From Aphrocallistes beatrix (Eukaryota > Porifera > Hexactinellida > Sceptrulophora > Aphrocallistidae): a stretch of 64,000 bases of DNA. Shown here one piece after another: positions 1,369-61,883 of the stretch. The stretch lies in assembly GCA_963281255.1 (NCBI GenBank), contig OY725488.1, forward strand, positions 10,079,524 to 10,143,523, given 5' to 3'. The notes below the pieces were generated by a model, which worked only from the letters and a program-made list of their open reading frames with translations, was not told the DNA's origin and did not search any database. The translations under genes and the position numbers were made by a program. Positions within the stretch are counted from its first letter, which is position 1, and each line of letters starts with the position of its first letter.

Positions 1369-3499
1369 CTACCAAGGTTTAGCACGTTCAGTTGCTTCTA
1401 CTCGTGTCAAGACAGGCTCTTCTTGGAAAAAATTCTTATCTGTCAGAGATATGAAGTCGAGAGGATATTGAAAGTTGAGATCAGTTAGACCAGTTTGTTC
1501 ATTAGTTTTGATAGGGTTCAGTTCTGTAGCATAAGAAAGGATTTTCTCATCAAGGGAACATGACAAAATATCACCAATAAATGCCGAATTAACTATTTTC
1601 TCAATACAAATAGTATTTTCTTCGATAGAATTTGTCCAACTCTTCCATTTATCAACAGTTATATCAAGAATTGATTTAATATGGCAGTACTTGGTACCAC
1701 CTGAACAAGTAAGAGGACATCTAACCAATTTAATGATATATATCTTGTAAGAAATGCTCTCTGTTTGGATCTTTTCCATCTTCAATACAGCAGAATATGA
1801 TTTCAAGTTGCTTCCTTAACGTTTTTGTTTTCTCATCGAGGAATGCTTTACTAGTCTTTTCATCTTTTTGAGGATTACAATATAACTCTCCTTCAATGCA
1901 GCCTCCGAAGTACAATCCTGTAATACAATGTAAAGCATAATCTTTAATGAAACTTGTAAAAGTAGGGGTTTCAAATTTGTACTCTAAACTATCAGCTCCT
2001 TCGGGAAGGGATTCTATTAATTTGTTAACAAATCTATCATCAAGAGCAAACTTTCCGATATCATTGATCTCGACCTGAAATAATACATAACAGATTCGAA
2101 AGGTTAGTTTTAAGTATTTCATTAGGAACCATCTTACATCTGCGTCACAAACGATGTCAATAGTAACTTGCCTGAGCTATTTTGCAATGCAATATTCAGG
2201 AATCTCAATTTCATAGTTCCCAAGTTTCCTATCCTTAAAGGGACGAATTGTTAGGATTTGATTTCGTGTGTCTCTGAATTGTCTGGAATATCCCATACCT
2301 AGTGATTTGAAATCAAGTTTTATTTTTATTCGAGATACTTGAAATAAATGGACTAACCATTCTTTTTCTTCATCAGTAAGTTGGAAAGGATACAGAGAAT
2401 TTTTGATCTTCAATAAATCCATAGTTTTAAGCGTTAAGAGATCGATATGTTTAATTTTCTGTAAATTATAAACCAAAGGAAAAATTTTAAAGGAATCTGA
2501 ATTAATTGCATCCATAAGAATTGAATAGATTTCATTGTCTTTCCTTATGAAGTATTTTTCATTTACAATTCCTTCCCACTTAGTAATACTATTACGCTTT
2601 AGATCAAGACGATTGGTCCTAATTGGTTCAATATTGCATTTCCTAGATATACTAAATAGTAACCTCACAGCTTCAATACCGATTTCATCTCCAGATTGTT
2701 TCATTAAGTGAATCATAGCTTGGAACAAGTTGAGAGGTTGTCTCTTACCGTCTGGTAGAATACGCCAGTCTCCTTCTTTTTCCATCTCCTCTCTCCTATC
2801 CAAATTCTCAATGAACACCACAGGTACTTCAAAAGAAAAATGAGCCTGAGTTAAATTTCTACATACTTCTTTAATCCATTTTGTTCCTTCAGCGTATTTA
2901 ACTCTCGAAAAGTGCATTGCATGTGTCACTGCAATCACTACATTAGGATGGAATTTATCAACTACGTTCAGTTTAGAAAGTACATGAAGCATCCTGGAGA
3001 AAGTAGAATAGATCCCACACAATCTATTATCTGCAGCTGAAAGAACGATGAGAACAATGTTAGGATAAATCCGAACTTGGTGTTTAGAATTCCCTAACTC
3101 AGGGTGTGTATCGATAAAATGCGATATCTTTGCCAAATTTTCAACATCAGCATCTTCTCCTCCTGTATCACCAAACCCTGGAGTATCAATAAAACTTACG
3201 TTCAAAACCTTTTCAGACAAGAGAGAACTCTTCACAGTACAACGATACTCAGTGACCTCTCGCGTTATAGACCCCCCTCTCTTGGCTTGAATAATATCTG
3301 TATCAAACAAGTAGTTTAAAGTGGAAGATTTTCCATCCCCTGATTTTCCATATAAAAATATAGTCGTTTGATTACTTGATCTTTGTGCGGCCTTACTTCG
3401 ATATTGCATTTGTGCCAAGACAGAGTCAATATATTTTGCAAAATTCTTTGTAGATTGTTGTTCTCCTAATTGGGGTTGAACGGGATTAGCTTCTGCCAA
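1369..3499 (-). pseudogene. Broken GTPase-MACPF-CAAX gene (subfamily I)
   Basis: Close relative of the intact gene at 8617-10779 but carrying four separate lesions. The start codon is TTG where intact copies have ATG (MAEANP context). A TAG stop replaces the Glu codon of the conserved AKELRQ stretch, near 2177. A frameshift near 1730-1800 separates the C-terminal third into another frame. A small deletion after AKPW puts a stop where the CAAX box should be, so the prenylation site is lost. The GTPase part is otherwise well kept: P-loop GKSGDGKSS, DTPGFGD, THAMHF, and EN followed by ILPDG. The MACPF-like signature (YALHC then FGG) is also still readable. It lies upstream in coordinates of a coiled-coil membrane protein gene at 5124-6692, the same neighbour order as the intact gene at 28953-31103. 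I call it a pseudogene; an N-terminal GTPase-only product from a downstream ATG cannot be excluded. Confidence 0.85.
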
Positions 3500-3575
3500 C
3501 TAAATGAAGAAAAAATTACACTCTCCAAATAAATTATTTTTTGCTGAGCAATTTAAATTGCAAATAATTATTACG
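3500..3575 (-). promoter_or_regulatory. Conserved 5' flank of subfamily I genes (copy 1)
   Basis: On the minus strand the bases just before the start codon contain TTAAATTGCTCAGCAAAA, closely matched before the genes at 28953-31103 and 34945-37095. Conservation at the same distance from the start suggests 5'UTR or promoter carried with the duplication. No factor site is claimed. Confidence 0.35.
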
Positions 3576-8323: not shown

Positions 8324-8458
8324 CTATATGATAGCACACATGGTTTTGGCATGATCAGTTGCTTCTACTCGTGTCAAGACCGGCTCCTCTTGCAAAAAAT
8401 TCGTATCTGTCAGAGATATGAAGTCGAGAGGATTTTGAAAGTTGAGATCAGTTAAACC
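8324..8458 (-). pseudogene. Orphan 3' end of a GTPase-MACPF-CAAX gene
   Basis: On the minus strand 44 codons run from a GLTDLNFQ stretch through LTRVEATDHAK to a terminal CAII box and TAG stop. This closely matches the last part of the gene at 28953-31103, including the bases after the stop. Homology stops abruptly at 8458, and 158 bp later the complete gene at 8617-10779 ends. It is a leftover of unequal recombination or deletion between tandem copies. Confidence 0.8.
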
Positions 8459-12786: not shown

Positions 12787-14877
12787 TTATAATAAAATAC
12801 ACATAGCTCTAGCTGGACCACTCGCGTCAGTCCGTGTTTTAACATCCAATTTCAGATTGTGGGGTACAGGCGATACTGCGCTAATAGAAGATTGAGAAGA
12901 ATAGCCTGTCAAATCATTTTTTTCAATTTTTTCATTAAAATGATGAGCAAATGGACTGATCTCTTCATCATGTGATTCTTTTAGTATTTTGTATAGAGGA
13001 ACGGGTTTGATAATATTATCTAGACAAATACTATTTTGTTGAATGGATTTTTTCCAGTCGTTCAATTTATTCACAGTTATATCGGACAGTCTTTCAGAAT
13101 GACATTTCTTGCTTCCTCTTCTCCAAGTGATCTTACATTCTTGCAATGCGTTTTTTAGTTTATCGTCGAATTGGGGGGGTATGTCGCGCGGGCTAGTTCC
13201 ATTATTGATTTGTGTAAGGAAATTTTCGAGTTGCAAAGAGATTTCTTGGCTCTTATCATCGAGAAACATTTTGTTATTTTGCTCGTTTTGTAAAAAAGAA
13301 AATTCAAAATTTATATCAATATAGTCACCGAAAGATAATAGTATAATACAATCTTGAGAGTATTCTTCGATGAAAGTATTCCTTCTTTCATGATATTGTT
13401 CTGTAAAAAAAGAATTTTTTAACTTGCTGATAAAAGAGGGATCAAATATTTCAATTTTATCAACTTCAACTTGAAATAAGATATAACATATTCGAAACAT
13501 TAGTTTTGAAGAGTTTGCTCGGAACAAGTTCACTTTTCCTTCATGAACGATGTCAAAAATGGAAAACTTTCCGATTTCTTTTATTGAACATGTTTCAGGA
13601 ATTTCAACTTCATAGTTTCCAATTTTCATTCTTGTCATGGGACCAAGTTCTAGAATACGTTTTCGACTTTTCTTCAGTATTGTAGAATAACCGCAGCCTA
13701 ACAGTTCAAAATCAAGTTTTATTTTAATTCGGGATACTTCAAATAGATGGATTAGCCATCCTTTTTCTTCACTAGTAAATTCGTAAGGAAAGAGAATTTT
13801 CTGAATATCTGTCATTTGGTAATTAAGAAATTCATTGGGATTGACCAAATGTTTTTTCTGTAAGTTATATATCATAGGAAAAATGTGTAGGCTATCGGAA
13901 CCAATATACGTAGAAATAATTTCATAAATAATACTTTGTTTCTTTGAAAAGAATTTTTCTTCTATTATTTCTTTCCATTGAGAAGAACAATATTTTAAAT
14001 CGCTGGGTATACTTATACTGGTTGGACTTACTTTATATTTAGTAGACATATGAAAAAACAGCCGAACAGCTTCAATACCGATTTTATCTCTGGATTGATT
14101 CATTAAGTGAATCATAGCATCAAACAAGTTAAGAGGTTGTTTCGTACCGTCTGGTAATATCTTCCAGTCTCCTTCTTGCTCCATTTCTTTCTTTTTATCC
14201 AAATTCTCAATGAATACCACAGGTACTTCAATAGAAAAATGAGCTCGAGTCAAAATTCGACATATCTTTTCAATATGTTTCGTTTCTTCATCAAATTCAT
14301 CTCTCGAAAAGTACATTGCATGTGTCACTGCAATCACTACATTTGGATAGAATTTATCAACTACATTCAGTTTAGATAGGACATGAAGCATCTTGGAAAA
14401 AATAGAATATATCCCAGACAATCTATCATCTGAAGCTGAAATAACGACTAGAACAATGTTAGGATAAACTCGAACTTGCTGTTTAGAGTTCCCTAACTCA
14501 GGGTGTGTCTCAATGAAATGTGATATTTTAGCCAGGTTTTCAGCATCTTCTCCTTCTGTATCATCAAATCCTGGAGAATCAATAAATCCAATATTTATAT
14601 TTTTTTCGATTTGTGATAATTCAAGGGAACAGCCGTATTCGGTAACTTCCCGCGTGTCAGACCTTCTTTTTCTTGTAGGAATAATATCTGTACCAAACAA
14701 GTGGTTCAGGGTAGAAGATTTTCCATCTCCTGACTTTCCATATAAAAATATAGTCACTTGTGTGGCAGATCGCCGAAGTAACGGTTTCTGGATTTGTTCT
14801 ACCATGTTGCTCTGAACCCCTGGTGCAAATTCCTCCATTTCAGGATGAATTAAATCCTGGGGATTAGCTTCAGCCAT
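12787..14877 (-). CDS. GTPase-MACPF-CAAX protein, 696 aa (subfamily II, mosaic)
   Basis: Single-exon gene with ATG in MAEANPQDLIHP context, like the gene at 45157-47238. P-loop GKSGDGKSS at 47-55, DSPG at 100-103 (Ser instead of Thr), THAM at 185-188, then IEN and ILPDG. The C-terminal half has the LGCGY entry motif, but the perforin-type signature is eroded: the position of YALHC reads YSQDC and the following FGG is FGD. The C-terminus is CILL, a CAAX box of geranylgeranyl type. The first ~80 and last ~400 residues resemble the 45-kb gene. The middle of the GTPase domain (about 14170-14480) is nearly identical in DNA to 10040-10340 of the gene at 8617-10779, pointing to gene conversion. The MACPF part may be structurally retained but functionally changed. 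The downstream flank carries a hAT MITE. Confidence 0.85.
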   Translation of the reverse strand: MAEANPQDLIHPEMEEFAPGVQSNMVEQIQKPLLRRSATQVTIFLYGKSGDGKSSTLNHLFGTDIIPTRKRRSDTREVTEYGCSLELSQIEKNINIGFIDSPGFDDTEGEDAENLAKISHFIETHPELGNSKQQVRVYPNIVLVVISASDDRLSGIYSIFSKMLHVLSKLNVVDKFYPNVVIAVTHAMYFSRDEFDEETKHIEKICRILTRAHFSIEVPVVFIENLDKKKEMEQEGDWKILPDGTKQPLNLFDAMIHLMNQSRDKIGIEAVRLFFHMSTKYKVSPTSISIPSDLKYCSSQWKEIIEEKFFSKKQSIIYEIISTYIGSDSLHIFPMIYNLQKKHLVNPNEFLNYQMTDIQKILFPYEFTSEEKGWLIHLFEVSRIKIKLDFELLGCGYSTILKKSRKRILELGPMTRMKIGNYEVEIPETCSIKEIGKFSIFDIVHEGKVNLFRANSSKLMFRICYILFQVEVDKIEIFDPSFISKLKNSFFTEQYHERRNTFIEEYSQDCIILLSFGDYIDINFEFSFLQNEQNNKMFLDDKSQEISLQLENFLTQINNGTSPRDIPPQFDDKLKNALQECKITWRRGSKKCHSERLSDITVNKLNDWKKSIQQNSICLDNIIKPVPLYKILKESHDEEISPFAHHFNEKIEKNDLTGYSSQSSISAVSPVPHNLKLDVKTRTDASGPARAMCILL

Positions 14878-16798: not shown

Positions 16799-17278
16799 TG
16801 TAACGAATTGATTGAAGAAACTGCCAGGCGTAGAAAGCTGATTTTTGGCAAGTGAGAGTATTTTGGCTAAGCTATGGCAAGTTCTGAGCTCAGACGAAAA
16901 TGTCGACTCATCATGGAATTATGACGTCATTGTCAGATTTTTAAAGTCAAGCAATACAGTTATTCGAGCATAACTCAGCCATTATAGGAGATAGAAGGCT
17001 GAGATTTTAATAAAATATGTATACTAACATACCTCACATATGATGCAACTATCATCAAAAAATGATGACTCATCACTTTGTTATGACGTCATCATTACTC
17101 ATCAAAATTTTAAAAATAGATAATTTTGGTGATTTTTCGTGCGATATCGATTATAACAGTAGTACAGGCGTATTTAGGGATTTTATCTCCCTTATAATTA
17201 ATCAATGTGACCCTAGGCGCCTCTTGCGGACACACAGTGTCCGCCAGCCGCGCAGCGCAAGCAAGCGAAGCGCGCTTA
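16799..17278 (+). mobile_element. Helentron-like element, family 2, plus orientation
   Basis: Runs from TGTAACGAATTGATTGAAG to the GC-rich end GCAAGCAAGCGAAGCGCGCT. Relatives are at 41596-42085, 53837-54386 and, as fragments, 16041-16259, 17513-17790 and 44363-44485. There is no coding capacity. It meets the TACA microsatellite at its GC-rich end. Confidence 0.55.
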
Positions 17279-17470: not shown

Positions 17471-17501
<31 letters not shown>

Positions 17502-26005: not shown

Positions 26006-27115
26006 CTACGTGATAACACACATAGGTTTGGCAGTTGCTTCTACTCGTGTCAAGACAGGATCTTCTTGGTAAAATTTCGTATCTATCAGAGATATGAAGT
26101 TGTGGGAGTTTTGAAAGTTGAGATCAGTCAAACCAGTTTGTTTATCAGTTTTGATGGGGTTCAGTTCTTTAGAATAATAACTGATTTTCTCATCAGGGGA
26201 ACTTGATAAAATATCACCAATAAATGTCGAATTAACCATTCTCTCAATACAAATAGTATTATTTTCGACAAAATCTGTCCATCTCTTCCATTTATTAGCA
26301 TTCATATCAAGAATTGATTTGACATGGTAGTATTTACTACCTCCTGAGCAAGTAAGTGAACATTTGATCAATCCATTAATGCTTTCCATGTCTTGCAAAG
26401 AAATACTCTGGATCCTTGCCACCATGAATACAGCCGAAGTAAGTTTCAAGTTGCTTCCTTAATGTTATTGCTTTCTCTGCAAGGAATTTTTTACTTTCCC
26501 TATCATCTTCTTTACGACTACAATATAACTCTCCCGAAATACAGCCTCCGAAGTACAATCCTGTAATGCAGTGTGAAGCGTAATCTTTAATGAAATTTGT
26601 AAAAGTAGGGTTTCGAATTTGTACTCTAAACTATCACAGCTCCTTCAGGAAGAGATTGTTCTAATTTGTTAACAAATATATCATCAAGAGCAAATCTTCT
26701 GATATCACTGATCTCGACCTGAAATAATACATAACAGATTCGAAAGGTTATTTTTAAATATTTCATCAGAAACCATTTTGCATCTTCGTCATAAAGAAAG
26801 TCAATAGCAACCTTTCTGAGTTCTTTAACCGTGCAATATTCAGGAACATCAATTTCATAGTTCCCAATTTTCATATATTTAAAGGGACAAATTGTTAGAA
26901 TTTGCTTTCGTTCGTCCTTGAAATGTCTAGAATAGCCCACACCTAGTGATTTAAAATCAAGTTTTATTTTTATTCGAGATACTTTAAATAAATGGACCAA
27001 CCATTCTCTTTCTTCATTAGTAAGTTGGAAAGGAAAGAGAGAATGTTTGACCTTCAACAAATCCATAGATTTAAGCGTTGGGAGATCAGTTAGTTTAATT
27101 TTCTGTAAATTATAA
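26006..27115 (-). pseudogene. 5'-truncated GTPase-MACPF-CAAX gene (subfamily I)
   Basis: Only the C-terminal half remains, beginning at the YNLQKIKL region, so the entire GTPase domain is gone. It keeps LGVGY and a LYFGG-like remnant (here MYFGG), and ends MCVIT: a CAAX box CVIT. Two frameshifts break it, near 26630 (after SLPEGA) and near 26400-26450. The 5' breakpoint at 27115 joins directly to block 3 of the spacer, so an interior part of this gene was fused to the 3' flank of the next unit. Confidence 0.85.
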
Positions 27116-28952: not shown

Positions 28953-31103
28953 CTATATGATAGCACACATAGATTCAGCATGATCAGTTGCTTCTACTCG
29001 TGTCAAGACAGGCTCTTCTTGCAAAGATTTCGTATCTGTCAGAGATATGAAGTCGAGAGGGTTTTGAAAGTTGAGATCAGTTAAACCAGTTTGTTTTTCA
29101 GTTTTGATAGGGTCCAGTTCTTTAGCATAATAACTGATTTTCTCATCAGGGGAACTTGATAAAATATCACCAATAAATGTCGAATTAACCATTCTATTAA
29201 TACAAATAGCATTATTTTCAATAGAATTTGTCCAACTCTTCCATTTATTAGCATTCATATCAAGAATTGATTTGGCATGGTACAATTTATTACCGCCTGA
29301 ACAAGTAAGTGAACATTTGATCAATTCATTAACGTTTCCCATGTCATGTAAGAAATATTTTCTGTTTGGATTCTTTCCACTTTGAATACAGCCGAAGTAA
29401 ACTTCAAGTTGCTTCCTTAATGCTTTTGCTTTCTCAGCGAGGAAGTTTTTACTTTTCTTCTCATCTTCATTACGATTATAATATAACTCTCCCTCAATAC
29501 AGCCTCCGAAATACAATCCTGTAATACAGTGTAAAGCGTAATCTTTAACGAAATTTGTAAAAGTAGGGTTTTCAAATTTGTACTCTAAACTATCAGCTCC
29601 TTCGGGAAGGGATTCCATTAATTTTTTAACAAAGGTATCATTAAGAGCAAACTTTCCGATATCAGTTATCTCTACCTGAAATAATACATAACATATTCGA
29701 AATGTTATTTTTAAATATTTCATTAGGTACCATTTTGCATCCTTGTCATAAACAATGTCAATAGCAACCTTTCTGAGTTCTTTAGCTTTACAATATTCAG
29801 GAACATCAATTACATAGTTCTCAATTTTCTTACCTACACAGGGATGAATTGTTAAGATTTGCTTTCGTTCGTCTTTGAAATGTCTAGAATATCCCACACC
29901 TAGTGACTTAAAAGCAAGTTTTATTTTCATTCGAGATACTTGAAATAAATGGACTAACCATTCTCTTTCTTCATTGGTAAGTTGGTAAGGATGGAGAGAC
30001 TGCTTGATCTTCAACAAATTCATTTTTTTAAGTGTTAGGAGATCAGTTAGTTTAATTTTCTGCAAATTATAAACTAAAGGAAAAATTATAAACTCATCAG
30101 AATTATTTTCCTCCATAAGAATTGAATAGATTTCATTGTCTTCCCTTAAGAAGAATTCTTCATTCACAATTCCTTTCCACAGAGGTCTTTTAAGTTTTAG
30201 ATCAAGATTTTGAGGAGTGGTCCTAATTGGTTCAATATTACATTTCCAAGAATCACTAAATAGTAACCTCACGGCTTCAATACCGATTTCATCTCCAGAT
30301 TGTTTCATCAAGTGAGTCATGGCATGGAACAAGTTGAGAGGTTGTCTCTTACCGTCTGGTAATATCTTCCAGTCTCCTTCTTGTTTCATTTCTTTCTTTT
30401 TGTCCAAATTCTCAATGAATACCACAGGTACTTCTAAAGAAAAATGAGCTCGAGTCATAACTCTACATATATCTTCAATAAATTTTGTTTCTTCAATGTA
30501 TTCATCTCTTGAAAAGTTCATTGTATGTGTCACTGCAATCACTACATTTGGATGTATTACGTCAACGACTCTCAGTTTAGATAGGACATGAAGCATCTCA
30601 GAAAATTTTGAATAGATCCCAGACAATCTATCATCTGTAGCTGAGATAACGATGAGAACAATGTTGGGATAAACCCGATCTGGATACAATTTGGAATGCC
30701 CTAACTCAGGATGTATATCGATAAAGCTCGATATTTTCACTAAATTTTCAGCATCAATATTTTTTCCTCCTGTATCATTAAACCCTGGAGTATCAATAAA
30801 ACATATATTCAAATCCTTTTCAGACCAGAAGGAACTCTTCACAGTACAACGATACTCAGTGACCGTTCGCGTTATAGAACGGCCTCTCTTAGCTGGAATA
30901 ATATCTGTATCAAATAAGTAGTTTAAAGTGGAAGATTTTCCATCTCCTGACTTTCCATATAAAAATATAGTGGCTTGATTGCTTGATCTATTTGCGGACT
31001 TACTTCGATATTGCATTTGTGCCAATGCAGAGTTAATATAGGATGCAAATTTCTCTGTTGATAGTTCGAACAAATAAGGTTGGACGGGATTAGCTTCGGC
31101 CAT
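28953..31103 (-). CDS. GTPase-MACPF-CAAX protein, 716 aa (subfamily I, intact)
   Basis: I take the ATG at 31103 (MAEANP context), not the four codons further upstream that begin with TTG. P-loop GKSGDGKSS at 50-58, DTPGFND, THTM in the G4 position, and IEN...ILPDG complete the AIG1/Toc-like GTPase domain. The C-terminal part has LGVGY, SLPEG, YALHC with FGG, a CSGG, then a W..W..SI tract, matching the order of MACPF landmarks. The tail TRVEATDHAES leads into CAII, a CAAX box. The downstream flank (block 3) and the tail closely match the orphan 3' end at 8324-8458. The neighbour toward higher coordinates is coiled-coil gene copy 2, repeating the order seen at 1.4-6.7 kb. GTPase and prenylation calls are strong; MACPF is by motif; no experimental function is known to me. 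Confidence 0.88.
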   Translation of the reverse strand: MAEANPVQPYLFELSTEKFASYINSALAQMQYRSKSANRSSNQATIFLYGKSGDGKSSTLNYLFDTDIIPAKRGRSITRTVTEYRCTVKSSFWSEKDLNICFIDTPGFNDTGGKNIDAENLVKISSFIDIHPELGHSKLYPDRVYPNIVLIVISATDDRLSGIYSKFSEMLHVLSKLRVVDVIHPNVVIAVTHTMNFSRDEYIEETKFIEDICRVMTRAHFSLEVPVVFIENLDKKKEMKQEGDWKILPDGKRQPLNLFHAMTHLMKQSGDEIGIEAVRLLFSDSWKCNIEPIRTTPQNLDLKLKRPLWKGIVNEEFFLREDNEIYSILMEENNSDEFIIFPLVYNLQKIKLTDLLTLKKMNLLKIKQSLHPYQLTNEEREWLVHLFQVSRMKIKLAFKSLGVGYSRHFKDERKQILTIHPCVGKKIENYVIDVPEYCKAKELRKVAIDIVYDKDAKWYLMKYLKITFRICYVLFQVEITDIGKFALNDTFVKKLMESLPEGADSLEYKFENPTFTNFVKDYALHCITGLYFGGCIEGELYYNRNEDEKKSKNFLAEKAKALRKQLEVYFGCIQSGKNPNRKYFLHDMGNVNELIKCSLTCSGGNKLYHAKSILDMNANKWKSWTNSIENNAICINRMVNSTFIGDILSSSPDEKISYYAKELDPIKTEKQTGLTDLNFQNPLDFISLTDTKSLQEEPVLTRVEATDHAESMCAII

Positions 31104-34944: not shown

Positions 34945-37095
34945 CTACATGACAGTACACCAAGGTTTGACACAATCAGTTGCTTGTACTCGTGTCAGGA
35001 CAGGCTCTTCTTGGAAAAATTTCGTATCTATCTGAGATATGAAGTTGTGAGAGTTTTGAAATTTGAGATCATTCAAACCAGTTTGTTTTTCAGTTTTGTT
35101 GGGATTCAGTTTTTCAGCATAAGAACGGATATCCTCATCAAGGGAATTTGATAAAATATCACCAATAAATGTCGAATTTACCATTTTCTTAATACAAATA
35201 GCATTATTTTCAATAGAACTTGTCCAATTCTTCCATTTATTAACATTTATATCAAGAATTGATTTGGTATGGTAGACATTGTTACCGCCTGAACAAGTAA
35301 GTGAACATTTGATCAATTCATTAATGTTTTCCATGTCCTGTAAGACATATTCTCTGTTTGGATCCTTCCCACTTTGAATACAGCCGAAGTAAACTTCAAG
35401 TTGCTTCCTTAATGCTATTGCTTTCTCTGAGAGGAATTTTTTACTTTTCTTTTCATCTCCTTTACGACTATAATATAACTCTCCCTCAATACAGCCTCCG
35501 AAATATAACCCTGTAATGCAGTGTAAAGCGTAATCTTTAATGAAATTTGTAAAAGTAGGGTTTTCGAATTTATACTCTAAACTATCAGCTCCTTCGGGAA
35601 GAGATTCCATTAATTTGTTAACAAATCTTTCATCAAGAGCAAACTTTCTGATATCATTGATCTCGACCTGAAATAATACATAACATATTCGAAAGGATAT
35701 TTTTAAATATTTCATCAGAAACCATGTTGCATCTTTGTCATAAACGATGTCAATAGCAACTTTTCTGAGTTCTTCAGCTGTGCAACATTCAGGAACATCA
35801 ATCACATAGTTCCTAATTTTCATTTTTTCTAAGGAACGAATTGTTAGGATTTGCTTTCGTGTGTCCTTGAAATGTCTAGAATATCCCACACCTAGTGTTT
35901 TGAAATCAAGTTTTACTAACATTCGAGATACTTCAAATAAATGGACTAACCATTCTCTTTCTTCATCAGTAAGTTGGAAAGGATGGAGATAATTCTTGAC
36001 CTTCAACAAATCCATAGTTTTAAGCGATGGGATATCAGTCAGTTTATGTTTCTGCAAATTATAAACCAAAGGAAAAATTAGAAATTCATCAGAAATATTT
36101 CTATCTACAAGAATTGAATAAACCTCACTGTCTTCACATAAGAAGAATTCTTCATTTACAATTCCCTTCCACAGAGGTCTTTTAGACTTTAGATCAAGAT
36201 TTTGAGGAGTGGTCCGAATTGGTTCAATATTATATTTTCTAGAATCACGAAATAGTAACCTCACGGCTTCAATACCTATCTCATCTCCAGATTGTTTCAT
36301 CAAGTGAGTCATGGCTTGGAACAAGTTGAGAGGTTGTCTCGTACCATCTGGTAATATCTTCCAGTCTCCTTTATGCTCCAGTTCTTTCTTTTCATCAAAA
36401 TTCTCAATGAATACCACAGGTACTTCAAAAGAAAAATGAGCTCGAGTCATAACTCTACATATGTCTTCAATAGATTTTGTTCCTTCAATGTATCCATTTC
36501 TCGAAAAGTGCATTGTGTGTGTCACTGCAATCACTACATTTGGGTGGAATATGTCAACCACATTCAGTTTAGATAGGACATGGAGCATATTGGAAAACAT
36601 AGAATAGATCCCAGATAATCTATTATCGGAAGCTGAGATAACGATTAGAACAATGTTGGGATAAACCCGATCTGGATTCAATTTAGAATGCCCTAACTCA
36701 GGATGTGTATCGATAAAGCTCGATATTTTCACTAAATTTTCAGCATCAAAATTCTTTCCTCCTGTATCATTAAACCCTGGAGTATCAATAAAACATATAT
36801 TCAACTCTTTTTCAGACAAGAGAGAGCTTTGCACTTTACAACGATATTCAGTGACCTTTCGCGTTACAGATCCTCCTCTCCTGGTTGGAATAATATTCGT
36901 ATCAAATAGGTAGTTTAAAGTGGAAGATTTTCCATCTCCTGACTTTCCATATAAAAATATAGTGGCTTGATTACTCGATCTATTTGCGGCCTTACTTCGA
37001 TATTGCATTTGTGCCATTACAGAGTTAATATAGGATTCAAATTCCTCTGTAGATGTTTCTGGTAATTCAGGTTGAACGGGATTAGCTTCTGCCAT
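34945..37095 (-). CDS. GTPase-MACPF-CAAX protein, 716 aa (subfamily I, intact)
   Basis: Single exon, ATG in MAEANPVQP context. GTPase landmarks: GKSGDGKSS at 50-58, DTPGFND, THTM and IEN...ILPDG. MACPF-like landmarks: LGVGY, SLPEG, YALHC plus FGG, CSGG, then W..W..SI. The C-terminus is CTVM, a CAAX box whose final Met favours farnesylation. The tail TRVQATDCVK is the short conserved segment seen before the CAAX box in the family. It is most similar to the gene at 28953-31103. Together with the coiled-coil gene at 31.5-33.0 kb these two form the unit [GTPase-MACPF, coiled-coil, spacer, GTPase-MACPF] that also exists at 1.4-10.8 kb. Confidence 0.88.
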   Translation of the reverse strand: MAEANPVQPELPETSTEEFESYINSVMAQMQYRSKAANRSSNQATIFLYGKSGDGKSSTLNYLFDTNIIPTRRGGSVTRKVTEYRCKVQSSLLSEKELNICFIDTPGFNDTGGKNFDAENLVKISSFIDTHPELGHSKLNPDRVYPNIVLIVISASDNRLSGIYSMFSNMLHVLSKLNVVDIFHPNVVIAVTHTMHFSRNGYIEGTKSIEDICRVMTRAHFSFEVPVVFIENFDEKKELEHKGDWKILPDGTRQPLNLFQAMTHLMKQSGDEIGIEAVRLLFRDSRKYNIEPIRTTPQNLDLKSKRPLWKGIVNEEFFLCEDSEVYSILVDRNISDEFLIFPLVYNLQKHKLTDIPSLKTMDLLKVKNYLHPFQLTDEEREWLVHLFEVSRMLVKLDFKTLGVGYSRHFKDTRKQILTIRSLEKMKIRNYVIDVPECCTAEELRKVAIDIVYDKDATWFLMKYLKISFRICYVLFQVEINDIRKFALDERFVNKLMESLPEGADSLEYKFENPTFTNFIKDYALHCITGLYFGGCIEGELYYSRKGDEKKSKKFLSEKAIALRKQLEVYFGCIQSGKDPNREYVLQDMENINELIKCSLTCSGGNNVYHTKSILDINVNKWKNWTSSIENNAICIKKMVNSTFIGDILSNSLDEDIRSYAEKLNPNKTEKQTGLNDLKFQNSHNFISQIDTKFFQEEPVLTRVQATDCVKPWCTVM

Positions 37096-38484: not shown

Positions 38485-40656
38485 TTATAATATGGCACAT
38501 TTTTTCGGTTTAGCAAGCTCAGTAGCTTGTACTCGAGTAATAACAATATCTTCCTCTTTGTCTCCTGGATAGAGGGCATTAATACCTAACGGTGTCGAAA
38601 TACGTGGAGATTTTTGAAAATTGATATCTTCTAAGTCATCTTGCCTCTCAGTTTTGATAGGTTTCAGTACATCAGCATAAGAACGGATTTTCTGAGATGT
38701 CGAGGCTGACAAAATATCGCCTATAAATACGGAATTCACCATTCCATCTATGCAAGTAATATTTTTCTCGATAGAATTAGTCCAATTTTTCCATTTATTA
38801 ACATTGATATCAAGAATTGTTTTAGCATGGTACTCCTTGCTACCTCCTGCACAAGTAAGATTACACCCAACCAATTTACGAAAGAATTCCTCGTCTTTCT
38901 GGAAAATGTTTTCTTTCGGATTTATTCCATCTTGAATACAATTAAAGTACCTTTCAAGTTGCTCTCTTAATATTTTCGTATTTTCATCAAGAAATCCTTT
39001 GTTAGCTTCTTCATCTTTAAGATAATCAAAATATAATTCCCCTTTAATAAACCCTCCGAAATATAATCCTGTGGTGCAGTGTAAAGCATAATCCTTTACG
39101 AAATCGACAAATCGATGGCTTTCTAAAATGTATTCCAGGCTACCAACTCCAGGGGGAAGTAATCTCTCTAATTGAGTGACAAAACTGGAATATAGACCAA
39201 TTTTAATGAATTTAGTTGTATCAATCTTTACCTGAAATAAGATAAAGCAGATTCGAAAGGTTATTTTCAAATATTTCATCATAAGCCATTTTGCACATTC
39301 ATCATAAACAATGTCAATGGCAACCTGTCTGAGTTCTTTTACTGAGCATAAATCAGGAACCCGAATTACATAGTTACCAATTGTCTTATTTTTCAAGAGA
39401 CCAATATTTAGAATTTGCTTTCGTTTGTCTTTGAATTCTCTAGAGTGTCCAATACCTAGCCAATTAAAATCAAGTTTTGTGTTAATCCTGCGTACATTAA
39501 ATAGATTAATCAACCATTCTGTTTCTTCATTGGTAAGTTGGAAAGGATGGAGAGCCTGCTTAACTTCTAACAAATCTCTATTTAGGAAATCTTCAGGCTT
39601 AACCACGTTAATCTTTTTCAAATGATAAACTAAAGGAAAAATATGAGAACCATCAGAATTAACATTGCTCAAAAGAATTGAATAGATCTGATTGTCTTTT
39701 TTTGAAAAGAATTTTTCATTTATTATTTCATTCCATTTGGAACTAGTTTCTAAATTAATATTTTCAGGAATACTCTTAATTTTCTCGATATTACATTTTT
39801 TACACTGACTAAAGAGGAGTCGAACAGCCTCAATGCCAACCTCATCCCCAGATTGTTTCATCAATCGAGTCATAGCATGAAACAAGTTGAGAGGTTGTCT
39901 CGTGCCATCTGGTAGAATACGCCAGTCTCCTTCTTTATCCATCTCATTTCTTTCATCCAGATTCTCAATAAACACCACAGGCACCTCAATTGAGAGATGA
40001 GCTCGTGTTGAACATTTACATATGTTCTCAATATATTTTGATTTCTCAGAATAGCCATTCCTCGTAAAGTGCATTGCGTGTGTCACTGCAATCACTACAT
40101 TAGGATGAAGTCTGTCCACGACATTCAGTTTAGAAAGGACATGAAGCATCTTAGAAAAAGCTGCATATATTCCACATAATCTATGATCTGAAGCTGAAAC
40201 AACCACTAGTACAATGTTTGGATAAACCTGAACTTTCTTCTTAGAATTCCCTAATTCAGGATGTTCATTAATAAAATGTGAAATTTTAGCTACATTTTCC
40301 CCATCATCATCTTCTCCATCTACATCTCCATACCCTGGAGTATCAATAAAACTCACACTTAAACCTGTTTGAACCAGAGGACTACTTAAAGAGCAACCAT
40401 ACTCGGTAACAGTTTTAGTTTCAGACTTTGCACTATGCGTTGGAATAACTTTAGTATCAAACAAGCAATTCAGGGTGGAAGATTTCCCATCTCCAGACTT
40501 GCCATATAAGAAAATAGTTGCTTGATTACTTGATCTGCTTGCGTGCTTACTTCGATATTGCATTTGCTCCATTATTGAGTTAATATATCTTGTGAAATTC
40601 TCTGGGGTTAGTTGCTTCTCAATTAGAGGTTGCTCTTCTGCATTGGCTTCTGCCAT
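38485..40656 (-). CDS. GTPase-MACPF-CAAX protein, 723 aa (divergent subfamily I, intact)
   Basis: Single exon, ATG in MAEANAEEQP context. P-loop GKSGDGKSS at 52-60, DTPGYGDVDG, THAM at G4, IEN...ILPDG. The C-terminal region has LGIGHS at the MACPF entry, LPPGVGS, YALHC with FGGFIKG, a CAGG, then W..W..SI. The C-terminus is KKCAIL: CAAX box CAIL with basic residues just before it, which could strengthen membrane binding; Leu at the end favours geranylgeranylation. It is the most diverged member of subfamily I and lacks the shared spacer and 3' flank of the others, so it is probably an older copy. The GTPase call is firm; the MACPF call is by motif order. Confidence 0.87.
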   Translation of the reverse strand: MAEANAEEQPLIEKQLTPENFTRYINSIMEQMQYRSKHASRSSNQATIFLYGKSGDGKSSTLNCLFDTKVIPTHSAKSETKTVTEYGCSLSSPLVQTGLSVSFIDTPGYGDVDGEDDDGENVAKISHFINEHPELGNSKKKVQVYPNIVLVVVSASDHRLCGIYAAFSKMLHVLSKLNVVDRLHPNVVIAVTHAMHFTRNGYSEKSKYIENICKCSTRAHLSIEVPVVFIENLDERNEMDKEGDWRILPDGTRQPLNLFHAMTRLMKQSGDEVGIEAVRLLFSQCKKCNIEKIKSIPENINLETSSKWNEIINEKFFSKKDNQIYSILLSNVNSDGSHIFPLVYHLKKINVVKPEDFLNRDLLEVKQALHPFQLTNEETEWLINLFNVRRINTKLDFNWLGIGHSREFKDKRKQILNIGLLKNKTIGNYVIRVPDLCSVKELRQVAIDIVYDECAKWLMMKYLKITFRICFILFQVKIDTTKFIKIGLYSSFVTQLERLLPPGVGSLEYILESHRFVDFVKDYALHCTTGLYFGGFIKGELYFDYLKDEEANKGFLDENTKILREQLERYFNCIQDGINPKENIFQKDEEFFRKLVGCNLTCAGGSKEYHAKTILDINVNKWKNWTNSIEKNITCIDGMVNSVFIGDILSASTSQKIRSYADVLKPIKTERQDDLEDINFQKSPRISTPLGINALYPGDKEEDIVITRVQATELAKPKKCAIL

Positions 40657-45156: not shown

Positions 45157-47238
45157 TTAAAAAAGGACACACGATTTAGCGTTGCCTGCTTCATTTCGCG
45201 TCATGATCACTTGAGCTTGATTGTTAGAATCACATCCCATGTTAATGGAATATTTCGAACGTAATATAAAATCCTCGCTGATTGCTTCGTTAGTAGTATT
45301 TAGTACTTCAGCATAAGAACGAATTTCTTCATCATGTGAGTTTGACAATATATCGAATAAAGGAACATATTCTACCATCCTATCTAAGCAAATAATATTT
45401 AATGGGATTGAATTCGTCCATTTTTGCCAATTATTAACATTTATATCTATAAATGTTCTCGAATGATACTTTTTATCACCTCCTTTCCATTTGATTTTAC
45501 AGTTTTTCAACTCACTGGATATTTTTTCATCAAATCCGATATCACCACATGGATTATTGCCTCTATCAATGTTCGCAATCCAAGTTTTAATTTGAGCAGT
45601 TATTTCTTGGATTTTTTTCCTTTGAAATTCGAGGCTATTCTGTTTATCTAGTTGAAGAGGATAACATAATTTTCCTTCTATAAGGCCTCCAAAATCTAAT
45701 TTTATAATACAGTGTGAAGGAAATATTTTTAACGAATTATGTTTTCTATTTCCAGTATCTTTCGAAATTTCCTTTTTTAATTCGTTGATAAAGACAGGAT
45801 CAATAGAACCTTTTTGGGGTTCATCAATACTGACCTTAAATAAAACATAATTAATCTGAAAGGTCATTACTAAATCAGATTGCAATTTTTTTTCGACATT
45901 AGAAGAATGAAAGAAAACCTCTCTGACTACATTAACAGAGCAAGTTTCGGGGGCATCCATTACATATTTGCCTATATTAATAGTTTTAACAGGTCCAATT
46001 TCCAGAATCCGATTTAATTTTTTGTCCATTTTTTCAGAATATCCGAGACCTAATAATTCAAAATCAAGTTTTATGTGTATTCGGGGTACATTAAATATAT
46101 GGATTAACCAACTATTTTCTTCTTCAGTAAGTTGGTAGTGTTTGAGACGTTGCAGGATGTCTTCCAGTGTTAGGTTAATGAAATCATCGGGTTTGACTAG
46201 CTTAATTTTCTGCAAATTATAGATTAAAGGAAATATACCTATGTTGTCAGAAGTCCCAGAACCAACATAACTTGAGAGAACACGATAATTTTCATTTTTT
46301 TTCTTTGAAAAGAATTTCTCTTCCAGAATTTGTTCCCAGTAATTAGAACTCAACTTATCTACATTAGGATTGCCGGAAGTATTTTCGATTTCTATGAATT
46401 TATATTTTTTAGACTCGCTAAAGATGTGTTTCACTACTCTACTACCAATTTTATCACCAGATTTTTCCATCAGTGTAATCATGGCATCAAATAAGTTGAG
46501 GGGCTGTCTCTTACCGTCTGGTAGAATACGCCAGTCTCCTTCATGTTCTAATTCATTGCGCTCATCCATGTTTTCAATGAATATTACAGGAACCTCCAAA
46601 GAAAAATGAGCACGAGTCATAATTCTACATACATCTTTAATATATTTTGTTTCCTCAATATAATTAGCCCTCGTAAAGTGCATTGCGTGTGTCACTGCGA
46701 TCACTACATTGGGATGAAGTCTGTCAACTACATTCAGTTCAGATAGAACATGAAGCATCCTTGAAAAAGAAGAATAAATCCCAGACAATCTTTTATTTGA
46801 TGCTGAAATTACAACGAGTACAATGTTTGGATAAATTAATTTTTCAGAATTCTTCAATTCAGGATGATTACCAATGAAATATGATATTCTAGCAAGGTTA
46901 TCAGCATCTTCTCCCTCTGTATCATCAAATCCTGGAGAATCAATAAATCTAATAGCTAACTTTTCTCTAAATAGTGACTCTTCAAGTGAACAGCCATATT
47001 CAGTAACTTTTCGTGTTTCCGATCTCCAATTCTTTGTTGGGATTACATTCGAGTCAAACAAGTGGTTTAGAGTTGAAGATTTTCCACTTCCTGACTTTCC
47101 ATATAAGAATATAATAACTTGTTTGGCAGATCGCTGTGCAAACGGATTCTGGATATGTTCTATTATATTGCTGTGAATTTCTGGTGCCAGTTCTTCTCTT
47201 TCAGGATGAATAAAATCCTGGGGATTAGCTTCAGCCAT
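45157..47238 (-). CDS. GTPase-MACPF-CAAX protein, 693 aa (subfamily II, intact)
   Basis: I choose the ATG at 47238 (MAEANPQDFIHP context); the frame stays open 50 codons further upstream but that extension has no counterpart in paralogs. P-loop GKSGSGKSS at 47-55, DSPGFDD, THAM at G4, and IEN...ILPDG. The C-terminal region keeps LGLGYS, then HCII with FGGLIEG (signature without the Tyr), a KGG and a W..W..SI tract. The C-terminus is CVLF, a CAAX box of geranylgeranyl type. Partner of the gene at 12787-14877, with which it shares termini and 5' flank. It did not receive the subfamily I-like middle segment found there, so it represents the unconverted form. Role inferred as for the family. Confidence 0.87.
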   Translation of the reverse strand: MAEANPQDFIHPEREELAPEIHSNIIEHIQNPFAQRSAKQVIIFLYGKSGSGKSSTLNHLFDSNVIPTKNWRSETRKVTEYGCSLEESLFREKLAIRFIDSPGFDDTEGEDADNLARISYFIGNHPELKNSEKLIYPNIVLVVISASNKRLSGIYSSFSRMLHVLSELNVVDRLHPNVVIAVTHAMHFTRANYIEETKYIKDVCRIMTRAHFSLEVPVIFIENMDERNELEHEGDWRILPDGKRQPLNLFDAMITLMEKSGDKIGSRVVKHIFSESKKYKFIEIENTSGNPNVDKLSSNYWEQILEEKFFSKKKNENYRVLSSYVGSGTSDNIGIFPLIYNLQKIKLVKPDDFINLTLEDILQRLKHYQLTEEENSWLIHIFNVPRIHIKLDFELLGLGYSEKMDKKLNRILEIGPVKTINIGKYVMDAPETCSVNVVREVFFHSSNVEKKLQSDLVMTFQINYVLFKVSIDEPQKGSIDPVFINELKKEISKDTGNRKHNSLKIFPSHCIIKLDFGGLIEGKLCYPLQLDKQNSLEFQRKKIQEITAQIKTWIANIDRGNNPCGDIGFDEKISSELKNCKIKWKGGDKKYHSRTFIDINVNNWQKWTNSIPLNIICLDRMVEYVPLFDILSNSHDEEIRSYAEVLNTTNEAISEDFILRSKYSINMGCDSNNQAQVIMTRNEAGNAKSCVLF

Positions 47239-55647: not shown

Positions 55648-56413
55648 CTACAGACAACGCACACCGTTAATAATATTGCCAATAAGGCACTGTATCTCCT
55701 ATAATATGAGCTGTACTAAATTACGAACTCTAATAGATATTGGATATAGTGATAGTACAGAATGTCATCGACTGGGGCACCTCAAACCGAATAAAATTAT
55801 CATTATATCCAAAATATAACTACTACATCCAATGTAATTACAAACTACATAGTTGCAAGATTCAAATATCTCAAATATAAACAAATTTAAAAGAATTCAA
55901 AAGTTGAAAAATAACAATTTCAGATATTTACACAAAATAAAGGGAATTGTAGAGAATAACATCAGTTAAAATAACTAATCAAATATAGATTCATTAAGAA
56001 TTCGTGTGATTAAAAATCATAAAATAACACATTCAGACTTAGAATGATCACTCGCATCTTTTCGGGTGTAAAACTTAGAACCAGATTCAGGGTCTGGCTC
56101 AACAGTTTCCTCAGATGCCAATAGCAGTGTCGCTATATTAGGTCGATCTTCAGGAGTGATAACTAAGAAGTGCTGGGCGTAGGCTTTAACATCCTCACTA
56201 GGATAGTTAAATAAGATATAGTCCAGAGAAATGTAATTAAAAAAGTTTTCTAAAAGAACCACGTTCCCTTCAAGCGAATCTACCCAGTCATTCAAATTGA
56301 CCGTTGTCATATCCAGGAGCTTATTACAGTAATACTTAGTGTTGCCTCCTCTCCAAGTTAGAGTAGAGTTGGACAGTGTACGGAATAATTCAACATCATT
56401 AACATCTGCAGCA

Positions 56414-58577: not shown

Positions 58578-58585
58578 ATACAAAC

Positions 58586-59460: not shown

Positions 59461-59699
59461 ATTAATGCCATTAAGATATCTATATCTTATATAATAAAAA
59501 CTGTATTAAAATTACGAACTAGTAGTTATAAGATTCAAATATCTCAAATAAATGCAAATTCAAAAAGTTCAAAAATAACAGTTTCAGATATACACACAAA
59601 ATAAAGTAAAGGAATTGTAGAGAATAACATCAGTTAAAATATCTAACCACTTAGAGAGTCATTAGTCATGTTCAAATTGGCACCATATGTGCTCAAAAA

Positions 59700-61883
59700 T
59701 TACAAAAAAAAACACTTAGACTTATATTGATTACTTGCATCTTCTCGATTGTGAAACCTGGGGCCAGGTTCAGGGTGTGGATCAACATTTTCATCAGAGT
59801 CCAATGCTAACAGTGCGTCTAAATTAGGTCGATCTTGTCCAGTGATAATTGAGAAGTCATCGGCGTAAGAACGAACATTTTCACTAGGGGAGTTCAATAG
59901 GATATTGTACAGAGGAACATAATTCAAAAAGTTTTCAAAAAGAATTACGTTCCCTTCAAGCGAATCTATCCAATGATTCCAATTGACCGTTGTCATATTC
60001 AGGAGCTTATTACAGTAATACTTACGGTTGCCTCCTCTCCAAGTTAGAGTAGAGTTGGACAATGCATGGAATAATGTGACATCATTAACATCTGGATTAA
60101 ATACGCTTTCTCTTCGAATACATTTTATCCATGTTTTGAGTTGGGAATTTAACTCTTTTTTACTCTTAATCAAATAAGCTTTGTTTTCAGCTGGATCTTT
60201 CTTAGACTCCAGCAACAATTCTCCCTCAATGAAACCTCCGTAGTATGCCCCTGTAACGCAATGCAGCCCGTATTTCTGTAAGAAATTTATGAAAATAAGA
60301 TTTTGAAATTTATACTCCAAATTAAACGGTTCGATTCCTTTTGGAAGTGATTCTTCTAAAGAAGCAATAAACAGGTTATTCAATCTGACTGCGTCGAGAT
60401 TTGCAATATTAACTTGAAACAACGAATGATATATTCGAAACCTCAGCTTGGAAAAGTTGGTAAATGGGCGCCAAGTTTCCCCAATCACTTGAAAATCATC
60501 GACATAGAACTTTCCAACATTTTGTACATTACATATTTGAGGAACTAACATTACAAAATTATCGTGTATTTTTGAAGGATAATTAGGACAAAAAGAATCT
60601 AAGACCTGAGATCGAATTTGATTAAACTCTCTCGAATACCCCAAACCGATAAGCCTTAAATTTACTTTAACGTTAACTCGTTTTACATCAAAAATATCAA
60701 ATAACCATCCTACCTCTTCACCAGTGAAAAGGAAAGGAAAAACTTTCTCTTTAACAAAAGTAATACTTGCATTTTGGAGTTGTTTAGAATAAATTATGCC
60801 AGCTTTCTGCAGATTATAAACAAAGGCAAGGAATTTTGAATCATCTGAAAATTTCTTACTTAGACTCTCATAAATCTGATTTTCCTTCGGAATGGATAAT
60901 CGTTCTTGAATAATCTTTCTCCAAAGAGTAATTTTAGAATTATTCGAATGATCTGGAGTTTTACCAATATTTGGAATATTACTTTTTCCAGACTCATTAA
61001 AACAGAGTCGAACAGCTTCAACACCAACTTCATCTCCAGATTGTTTCATTAAGTGAATCATAGCCTCGAACAAGTTGAGAGGTTGTCTTGTACCATCTGG
61101 TAGAATACGCCAGTGTCCTTCTTGTGCCATTTCTTTCCCTTTATCCAAATTCTCAATGAACACTACAGGCACTTCGATACAGAAGTGAGCTCTAGCCAAA
61201 GTTTTACAATTTTTCTTGATCCTTTTCGATTCCTCAATATAGTTCTCTTTCAAATGCATAGCATGTGTTACTACAATGACTGTATTAGGATAGATATCAT
61301 CAACTACTCCTAATTTTGAGAGAATATAAAGTGATTTAGAAAAGCTGGAGTTAATCCCGAATATTCTGTTATCTAAAGCTGACACGAAGACAAGTACAAT
61401 GCTTGGATAAATTTCTTCTTTTAATTCTTTGTGAGAGTCAATGAAATGGGAAATGTTTGCGAGGTTTTCAGGATCTAACCCGTTTGTATCACCTAACCCT
61501 GGCGTATCAATAAATCCTATTTTGAGTTCATTTCCCAATTCTGAACTATTAATAGAATAAGAATACTCAGTAACTTTCCGTGTTGAAGACTTATCTCTAC
61601 TCGTTGGAATAATATCGGAGTCAAATAAATATTTCAGAGTAGTTGATTTTCCAACTCCAGATGATCCGAATAAGAAGATAGTAGCTTGACTAGATGTACG
61701 CTTAGCTAGAATACTCTTCAGCCTCATCCCAGCCACTATCTTCTTCTTCGTTTTGCTTCGATCTAAGTCAATCCACTTAGAAATAGAATTCGATGAAATA
61801 AGCGGGTGGAGCTCAAATTCTTCGCCGGGATTATCAGATGAATCTACTTCATTGATTTGTATACTCGGATTAGCTTCAGCCAT
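59700..61883 (-). CDS. GTPase-MACPF-CAAX protein, 727 aa (subfamily III, intact)
   Basis: Single exon, ATG in MAEANPSIQIN context. The N-terminal extension is about 22 residues longer than in subfamily I. P-loop GSSGVGKST at 73-81 with the canonical Thr; DTPGLGDTNG; THAM at G4; IEN...ILPDG. The C-terminal region is the best MACPF match of the array: LGLGYS at the entry, then YGLHC with YYGGFIEGE, closest to the YGTHY...GG consensus, then RGG and a W..W..SLEGN tract. The C-terminus is CFFL, a CAAX box of geranylgeranyl type, preceded by NREDAS. Its broken sister lies at 56017-58299. As the most divergent intact gene with the most canonical motifs, it is the best starting point for structure prediction. 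Confidence 0.88.
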   Translation of the reverse strand: MAEANPSIQINEVDSSDNPGEEFELHPLISSNSISKWIDLDRSKTKKKIVAGMRLKSILAKRTSSQATIFLFGSSGVGKSTTLKYLFDSDIIPTSRDKSSTRKVTEYSYSINSSELGNELKIGFIDTPGLGDTNGLDPENLANISHFIDSHKELKEEIYPSIVLVFVSALDNRIFGINSSFSKSLYILSKLGVVDDIYPNTVIVVTHAMHLKENYIEESKRIKKNCKTLARAHFCIEVPVVFIENLDKGKEMAQEGHWRILPDGTRQPLNLFEAMIHLMKQSGDEVGVEAVRLCFNESGKSNIPNIGKTPDHSNNSKITLWRKIIQERLSIPKENQIYESLSKKFSDDSKFLAFVYNLQKAGIIYSKQLQNASITFVKEKVFPFLFTGEEVGWLFDIFDVKRVNVKVNLRLIGLGYSREFNQIRSQVLDSFCPNYPSKIHDNFVMLVPQICNVQNVGKFYVDDFQVIGETWRPFTNFSKLRFRIYHSLFQVNIANLDAVRLNNLFIASLEESLPKGIEPFNLEYKFQNLIFINFLQKYGLHCVTGAYYGGFIEGELLLESKKDPAENKAYLIKSKKELNSQLKTWIKCIRRESVFNPDVNDVTLFHALSNSTLTWRGGNRKYYCNKLLNMTTVNWNHWIDSLEGNVILFENFLNYVPLYNILLNSPSENVRSYADDFSIITGQDRPNLDALLALDSDENVDPHPEPGPRFHNREDASNQYKSKCFFL

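Follow-up and report, generated by a model that had tools for sequence, protein, structure and literature searches.

Tandem GTPase-MACPF-CAAX genes in the glass sponge Aphrocallistes beatrix and a probable exchange of Hint for CAAX within their family

We describe a family of tandem genes in Aphrocallistes beatrix, the products of which combine a GTPase domain, a MACPF domain and a C-terminal CAAX box. The window (the whole stretch of 64,000 nucleotides that was analysed, from contig OY725488.1) holds seven intact same-strand genes, each a single ORF of 693-727 aa, together with four broken copies, which confirms the tandem family proposed in the initial annotation. As a full explanation we lean slightly towards a lipid-anchored GTPase-MACPF family that underwent a Hint-to-CAAX anchor swap and has a role in cell-autonomous defence.

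Results

All seven intact genes are located on the minus strand. P0002 (8617..10779, 720 aa) is an intact ORF with the GTPase-MACPF-CAAX order, having a Septin-type G match at 10438-10647, a MACPF match at 8824-9363 and the CAAX box CSVM at 8620-8631. The other intact ORFs are found at 12787..14877 (696 aa, C-terminus CILL), 28953..31103 (716 aa, CAII), 34945..37095 (716 aa, CTVM), 38485..40656 (723 aa, CAIL), 45157..47238 (693 aa, CVLF) and 59700..61883 (P0001, 727 aa, CFFL at 59703-59714). The CAAX box claimed earlier is seen as a cysteine at position -4 (Cys-x-x-x) in all seven products, and this count, together with the recurrence of the box among relatives, rules out that it arose by chance. 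The description of the genes as intronless is correct where the window's coding ORFs are concerned but does not extend to the C6 cluster of the same genome, where GTPase and MACPF occupy separate ORFs that are probably exons. Searches for RNA genes in the window returned no tRNA and no Rfam family at gathering score.

The four broken copies, also on the minus strand, differ in what is left of them. The copy at 1360..3499 retains the GTPase and a partial MACPF region in a frame interrupted by a stop, with the C-terminal part in another frame. Of a second copy a C-terminal remnant is left at 8327..8458, and at 26120..27114 parts of the middle and the MACPF region survive in two frames. A further C-terminal remnant at about 56020..56409 (open frame of 146 aa) shows a 63% match to residues 597-727 of P0001. 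Pairwise dN/dS is 0.25-0.50 in all 55 pairs formed by the seven window genes and four cluster neighbours; these ratios are rough (dS is near or above 1 in many pairs) and fit genes that are kept by purifying selection. A pseudogene array is thereby ruled out for the seven intact genes, and that reading holds for the four pieces.

For the GTPase domain, at least one of the Pfam families Septin, AIG1 and MMR_HSR1 is above its cut-off in each of the seven window proteins. AIG1 itself passes its cut-off (27 bits) in two of them (28.5 and 30.8 bits, against 17.2-26.8 for the other five) and was rejected as the sole label, given that Septin and MMR_HSR1 score equally well. What stands of the earlier AIG1/Toc-like assignment is the broader Toc/septin/AIG1 class: GxxxxGK[ST], DxPG, a T-containing G4 and an EN-type G5 are all present, and among 75 aligned proteins the G1 Lys is found in 72, the G3 Asp in 73, the G4 Thr in 74 (His in 56) and the G5 Asn in 75. 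In a PDB search with the G domain, Arabidopsis T7I23.11 (which we take to be Toc33) and septins headed the list, and the T7I23.11 alignment takes in the G4 and G5 regions; the resemblance is weak across the whole G domain (best E 3.8e-7, no individual stretch being significant alone). Toc34/33, septins and GIMAPs share G1, G3, the T-containing G4 and the EN-type G5 with the family and, to our knowledge, carry no MACPF domain. Guanylate-binding proteins are large GTPases as well, some of them prenylated at a CAAX box, but their G domain is unlike that of the family and they have no MACPF; no GBP family is among the Pfam matches of the seven window proteins at E up to 1.

The MACPF domain that had been proposed for the C-terminal half is supported by sequence profiles. 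Pfam MACPF is above the curated cut-off in four of the seven window proteins (35.7, 35.7, 33.3 and 23.9 bits), and reaches 15.7 bits, below the cut-off, in the product of 38485..40656. For the products of 12787..14877 and 45157..47238 Pfam lists no MACPF match at E up to 1; these two align to 92% of the length of P0002 with identities of 48% and 44%. A profile made from 19 MACPF regions of the A. beatrix genome matches perforin-1 (8e-11), complement C6 (4e-8) and complement C9 (4e-5) in the PDB, and such matches rule out that the MACPF landmarks are due to chance or misreading. At E 0.001 a MACPF match is obtained in 35 of 53 family members, and 33 of the 35 genomic MACPF matches in A. beatrix (counted by eye) sit in clusters with GTPase. 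Relatives from Adineta, Mytilus and Gigaspora score 56.6, 61.1 and 70.2 bits, respectively, and Mytilus LOC127738684 and Gigaspora P0089 rank among the members with better conservation.

As in perforin-1, MPEG1 and complement C6-C9, the MACPF core contains the Y-G, GG and W..W..S landmarks. Known MACPF proteins are secreted or lumenal, whereas the family lacks a signal peptide-like start and carries a GTPase and a lipidation signal. In a crude test based on hydropathy, only two of the 75 aligned proteins (neither from the window) were over the limit for such a start, in line with the cytosolic location suggested earlier.

A further difference concerns the first transmembrane-hairpin (pore-helix) region. 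In a sequence alignment made without structure, the distance from GxGY to the strand-2 Phe is 60-71 residues (median 62) in all 25 CAAX proteins. In 41 Hint proteins the same distance is 65-105 (median 89), and Mytilus and Gigaspora have values of 98 and 88, respectively. The region is thus about 30 residues short in the CAAX clade, and the second helix region shows no shortening. Because of this, pore formation by members of the clade is doubtful, and the idea of pore-forming products is weakened for the window genes. It is a real possibility, if a little short of an even one, that these proteins are membrane scaffolds, in which MACPF would serve GTP-dependent oligomerisation after membrane insertion was lost. 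Such a role agrees with the shortening of the first helix region alone and with the Toc/septin class of the G domain, known members of which (septins, Toc and GIMAP-type GTPases) form dimers or filaments. However, the distances derive from alignment, seven Hint members are equally short in this region (65-71) and the MACPF core glycines are conserved (in 70 and 74 of the 75 aligned proteins).

Many relatives in A. beatrix, Oopsacas and Mytilus are GTPase-MACPF-Hint proteins, with a hedgehog autoprocessing module in place of the CAAX box, and the GTPase-MACPF fusion is also present in mussels, mycorrhizal fungi and a rotifer. The three homolog searches detect proteins through shared short words, and in two of them scoring was limited to the best 8000 candidates. 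Among 90 homologs, 45 end in Hint, 26 in C-x-x-x (25 without P0010, a broken fragment that ends this way by chance and was left out of the CAAX statistics), none in both and 19 in neither. These 19 include fragments, P0058 (cut within Hint), Gigaspora P0089 (with a divergent Hint-like end that is missed by the Hint profile) and six near-full-length proteins (P0039, P0043, P0044, P0045, P0080 and P0085); in view of the latter, the lipid may be dispensable or the gene models may be cut. The third search yielded 22 more proteins (P0091-P0112), which are outside all counts and were scanned for Hint, four of them also with Pfam. In the 25 CAAX proteins the a2 residue is I, L or V in 22 and F in 3. 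All 25 Hint matches in A. beatrix fall (by eye) within family clusters on C4, C7, C12 and C16, with no Hint match on C1, the site of the main CAAX cluster, and none in the seven window genes.

Cys1, Ser/Thr69 and His72 of Hint are present in all 45 proteins, and the Hint profile matches Drosophila hedgehog residues 258-459 (2e-19), reaching into the sterol-recognition region. The relatives share these residues and this match with the hedgehog C-terminal domain; they differ from it in position 46, which is His in 45 of 45 where hedgehog has Asp46, and in their cargo, a GTPase-MACPF part without signal peptide instead of a secreted ligand. The residue before Cys1 is Gly in hedgehog and in 7 of the 45 Hint proteins, a count that speaks against the anchor-swap explanation. 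An engineered Asp46-to-His swap reportedly left hedgehog autoprocessing active and widened its use of sterols (PMC9163320).

At four places in the A. beatrix genome a second, weaker Hint match directly precedes the intact one, and eight of nine inspected double-Hint proteins have G-F-P where the intact Hint has C-F-P, which suggests regulation. Given also the varying residue before Cys1 and the members with neither ending, it might be argued that Hint is a regulatory self-cleaving protease (with water as acceptor) that frees GTPase-MACPF on demand, the CAAX box being a separate gain of anchoring and not a functional replacement. We regard this as quite improbable, since the hedgehog match extends into the sterol-recognition region and since the strict exclusivity of Hint and CAAX, together with a shared linker, points to equivalent roles. 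The linker motif [TSND]-R-x-x-[AVI], a pattern picked after the tails had been viewed, occurs at most 32 residues before the Cys in 21 of 25 CAAX and 25 of 45 Hint proteins (background: 7.2% of windows taken from these proteins, 781 of 10,889). The 20 Hint proteins without it within 32 residues likewise count against the anchor-swap explanation.

The tree, like the counts over 75 proteins, omits 15 of the 90 homologs, namely fragments, partial models, a two-unit protein and GTPase-only or distant ones (P0003, P0005, P0010, P0029, P0041, P0050, P0055, P0057, P0059, P0060, P0064, P0078, P0086, P0088 and P0090). Rooted on Gigaspora, it places the 25 CAAX proteins and one truncated model in one clade (support 1.0). 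Nodes uniting this clade with Hint proteins have supports of 0.955, 0.97 and 0.992; the node of its immediate sister group lacks a support value, and support is as low as 0.28 at one deeper node. As CAAX forms one clade among Hint-bearing lineages, Hint was probably replaced once, and with so many relatives carrying Hint the CAAX box looks like the derived replacement. A phage origin was rejected on the basis of the Mytilus member P0082, the sole member compared, for which the phage collection yielded no match.

Discussion

Fusions of AIG1 with Hint (Hog) have been published for Glomus (GmGIN1), Glomeromycotina (MEROPS C46), amphioxus (CARD-AIG1-HINT) and Biomphalaria (AIG1+hint) [PMC2362128, PMC8778642, PMC12373286, PMC7053062]. 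Like our Hint-bearing relatives, they join an AIG1/Toc-type GTPase to a C-terminal Hint, and GmGIN1 is said to have no signal peptide. The genes could accordingly be taken for an ordinary lineage expansion of these fusions, with MACPF overlooked and nothing new in the mechanism. This seems unlikely to us: in their available portions, the published descriptions name neither a MACPF domain, which here lies between GTPase and Hint, nor a replacement by CAAX, and that of PMC8778642 comprises two domains. Our literature search found no named family with the GTPase-MACPF-CAAX architecture, in agreement with what had been stated initially.

Judged by their sequences, the proteins are plausibly cytosolic, GTPase-controlled MACPF proteins with a C-terminal sterol or prenyl anchor that serve cell-autonomous defence. 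The family would be ancient and patchily kept, and its members would consist of a Toc/septin-class GTPase (a putative GTP switch), a linker region, MACPF and a short R-x-x-A tail with a lipid at its end. In members of the older form, the C-terminal Hint would excise itself, and the tail would keep a sterol. In the clade of the window, Hint would have been lost once and a CAAX box would have come in its place, with prenylation taking care of anchoring. The X residue of a CAAX box sets the prenyl type, and by this rule the prenyl group of the window clade would mostly be geranylgeranyl. At the membrane, GTP-dependent pairing of G domains would bring the MACPF parts together as arcs or rings, which may damage or remodel the anchoring membrane, their presumed target. 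Tandem expansion and decay suggest a role in cell-autonomous defence, and analogy likewise points to a possible immune function.

A more far-reaching proposal, which we consider speculative and somewhat unlikely, is that of a new class of intracellular immune effectors: a GTP-gated perforin held by a lipid, in which the sterol of a His46-Hint gave way, in one glass-sponge branch, to a prenyl group in the same place on the tail. Under this proposal some genes would encode as many as five covalently joined GTPase-MACPF units, five being the number in a predicted product of C12.

Conclusions

If the anchor-swap explanation is true, perforin-like domains would, beyond their use as secreted weapons, also be GTPase-controlled intracellular tools, from fungi to animals, and hedgehog-type sterol attachment would operate on cytosolic proteins. 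The natural His46 Hints would provide a direct test of the engineered hedgehog result. Finally, evolution would have exchanged one lipid anchor for another on one scaffold.

The gene cluster and its extent

The initial annotation had proposed a tandem family of proteins combining a GTPase, a MACPF domain and a CAAX box; the family is real and the proposed architecture is right. In agreement with that description, the window, at C1:10079524-10143523, holds seven intact minus-strand ORFs of 693-727 aa, each ending in a CAAX-like tetrapeptide, together with four broken family pieces. When the genome (100.5 Mb, 28 contigs) is searched, family matches on the same contig (C1) span 9861097-10141406, beyond the window limits. 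All 13 intact ORFs of the window type end in C-x-x-x (counted by eye among the loci read): 11 lie on C1, including the seven of the window, and two on contig C16. The C-terminal pieces of the broken or cut copies L012, L021, L024 and L026 also end this way. For 11 cluster genes, dN/dS is 0.25-0.50 in 55/55 pairs (many with dS near or above 1); the GTPase part usually changes more slowly than the MACPF part.

Three other features were seen in the window. A plus-strand ORF of 195 aa with hydrophobic stretches (53043-53630) weakly resembles CD225/IFITM (20.4 bits against a cut-off of 27.1) and has 14 matches in the genome, itself counted. Part of a transposase, its DDE_3 domain scoring 51.4 bits, lies at 20176-20727 on the plus strand, and the minus-strand ORF at 17110-17718, mostly a repeated Met-Tyr-Val-Cys run, is probably a simple repeat rather than a gene.

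MACPF and GTPase domains

Pfam places MACPF above cut-off in four of the seven window proteins, and scores rise in the better-conserved family members: Adineta has 56.6, Mytilus 61.1 and Gigaspora 70.2 bits. A profile built from 19 MACPF regions of the Aphrocallistes genome matches perforin-1 (8.1e-11), C6 (4.2e-8) and C9 (3.9e-5) in the PDB, and further C8, an insecticidal protein, pleurotolysin B and MPEG1. The 33 PDB sequences at E <=1 include one unrelated de novo protein and one 'Unknown protein', and astrotactin-2 is the weakest of them. These profile matches support a MACPF assignment for the C-terminal half of the window proteins.

The G domain of the window proteins matches Septin, AIG1 and MMR_HSR1 in Pfam. 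With the family GTPase profile the top PDB match is Arabidopsis T7I23.11, which we take to be Toc33 (3.8e-7 for the whole chain, no single stretch being significant alone), and septins come next (2.2e-6). The T7I23.11 alignment includes a TH-type G4 and an EN-type G5; among 75 aligned family proteins the G1 Lys is present in 72 and the G3 Asp in 73.

A hedgehog-type Hint module in the relatives

A first search yielded 60 proteins and a second, alignment-based one 46, of which 30 were new; together they comprise 90 distinct homologs. Scored with a Hint profile (threshold >50 bits), 45 carry a Hint and 26 end in C-x-x-x, with no protein having both; the other 19 have neither. From Cys1 to the end, the Hint regions measure 202-243 residues in 42/45 and 144-171 in the other three. 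Every one of the four PDB matches to a profile of seven Aphrocallistes Hints is a hedgehog; the match to Drosophila hedgehog (residues 258-459, 2.1e-19) extends beyond the Hint core and enters the sterol-recognition region.

Cys1 and His72 are conserved in 45/45 Hints, and position 46 is His in all 45. According to the available text of PMC9163320, the hedgehog equivalent of position 46 is the general base Asp303, and an engineered His variant remains structurally intact and active and takes a wider range of sterols. The family Hints thus look competent and show the engineered Asp-to-His swap in natural form. That Gly precedes Cys1 in only 7/45 speaks against a plain hedgehog-like reaction.

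By eye, and among the matches listed, 25/25 Pfam Hint matches in the genome fall inside family clusters of contigs C4, C7, C12 and C16, with none on C1, and 33/35 MACPF matches lie in clusters with GTPase matches. The two outside are C15:3403249 and C16:202605, the latter a MACPF-only ORF separated by 29 kb from the closest GTPase match listed. At C6:4256618-4269114 (loci L027, L028 and L029) GTPase and MACPF occur in separate, closely spaced ORFs, which are probably exons of intron-containing family genes.

At four places, C16:1072579, C16:1101747, C4:2280066 and C16:1068264, the intact Hint is immediately preceded by another Pfam Hint match of lower score. In 8/9 long proteins inspected (P0031, P0032, P0034, P0035, P0067, P0073, P0074 and P0075), G-F-P replaces the C-F-P of the intact Hint, likely at the Cys1 place of the extra copy, judging by pattern only. 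On C12 (L039/L040, C12:1023500-1042000) a single 3630 aa frame at 1024151-1035040 holds five consecutive GTPase-MACPF units of 707 aa. Unit 2 is identical to unit 4, and units 3 and 5 share 99.6% of their residues; unequal crossing-over of recent date, or an artefact of the assembly, may be responsible. The frame that follows, 1404 aa read from 1036942, has at least one more unit and a Hint at its end.

Range and literature

The best-scoring named relatives of the window proteins, P0026 and P0028 (31-32% identity), come from Oopsacas minuta, also a hexactinellid sponge. Among named entries, GTPase and MACPF occur together in proteins of Oopsacas, four Mytilus species, Gigaspora margarita, Gigaspora rosea and Adineta vaga, a patchy range that could stem from loss or horizontal transfer. 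The Mytilus coruscus entries P0092 and P0095 are labelled DHH, with GTPase-MACPF-Hint as listed domains; the label probably derives from the Hint module. P0089 and P0099, both GTPase-MACPF proteins, belong to arbuscular mycorrhizal fungi (Gigaspora), and P0104 to a bdelloid rotifer (Adineta). The C-terminal end of P0089 gives a weak intein-type Hom_end_hint match (22.5 bits against a cut-off of 32.1), and the end of P0104, resembling it by eye only, lacks any match to Hint in Pfam at E 0.01; the sponge-derived Hint profile matches neither. Fish matches cover 16-18% of the query, with GTPase domains and no MACPF listed, and Dendronephthya P0090 has GTPase domains alone listed.

AIG1-Hint fusions have already been described (PMC2362128, PMC8778642 and PMC7053062, in the portions available), and PMC12373286, the one paper listed that mentions MACPF as well as the Hint domain, describes AIG1+HINT in its accessible part and, separately, an enrichment of MACPF in lancelets. 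The literature searched, which leaves most subscription journals outside its scope, yielded no description of a GTPase-MACPF fusion; excerpts of PMC4771724 and PMC9334734 contain nothing on such fusions, and on MACPF with prenylation or CAAX none of the 12 papers listed, out of 1,354, mentions MACPF.

A probable exchange of Hint for CAAX

We built a FastTree phylogeny from the GTPase-to-MACPF region of 75/90 proteins, rooted by choice on Gigaspora. All 25 CAAX proteins fall, together with one truncated model, into a single clade (support 1.0), which is united with Hint proteins at nodes of 0.955, 0.97 and 0.992; the node joining this clade to its immediate sister carries no support value, and two other nodes are weak (0.28 and 0.36). 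The motif [TSND]-R-x-x-[AVI], typically T-R-x-x-A, occurs within 32 residues upstream of the CAAX Cys in 21/25 and of the Hint Cys1 in 25/45, against a background of 7.2% of windows in the same proteins. The four remaining CAAX proteins have F/Y-R-K-T/W-A, and seven of the Hint misses have a T-R-x-x-A-like motif 160-193 residues upstream of Cys1, in several cases preceding an apparent extra, degenerate Hint.

The first helical cluster of the MACPF domain was measured as the alignment distance from GxGY to the second-strand Phe. It is 60-71 (median 62) in the 25 CAAX proteins against 65-105 (median 89) in 41 Hint proteins, with Mytilus at 98 and Gigaspora at 88; seven Hint members are as short as the CAAX proteins, and the second helical cluster of the latter is not shortened. 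Because the first cluster is short in CAAX proteins, the case that the window proteins themselves form pores is weakened.

Read from sequence, the CAAX box probably stands in place of a hedgehog-type Hint on a GTPase-MACPF scaffold, the Hint having been exchanged for the CAAX box. What is said of mechanism, beyond the anatomy of the family proteins, is inferred. This probable exchange of Hint for CAAX is more surprising than the GTPase-MACPF-CAAX architecture itself.
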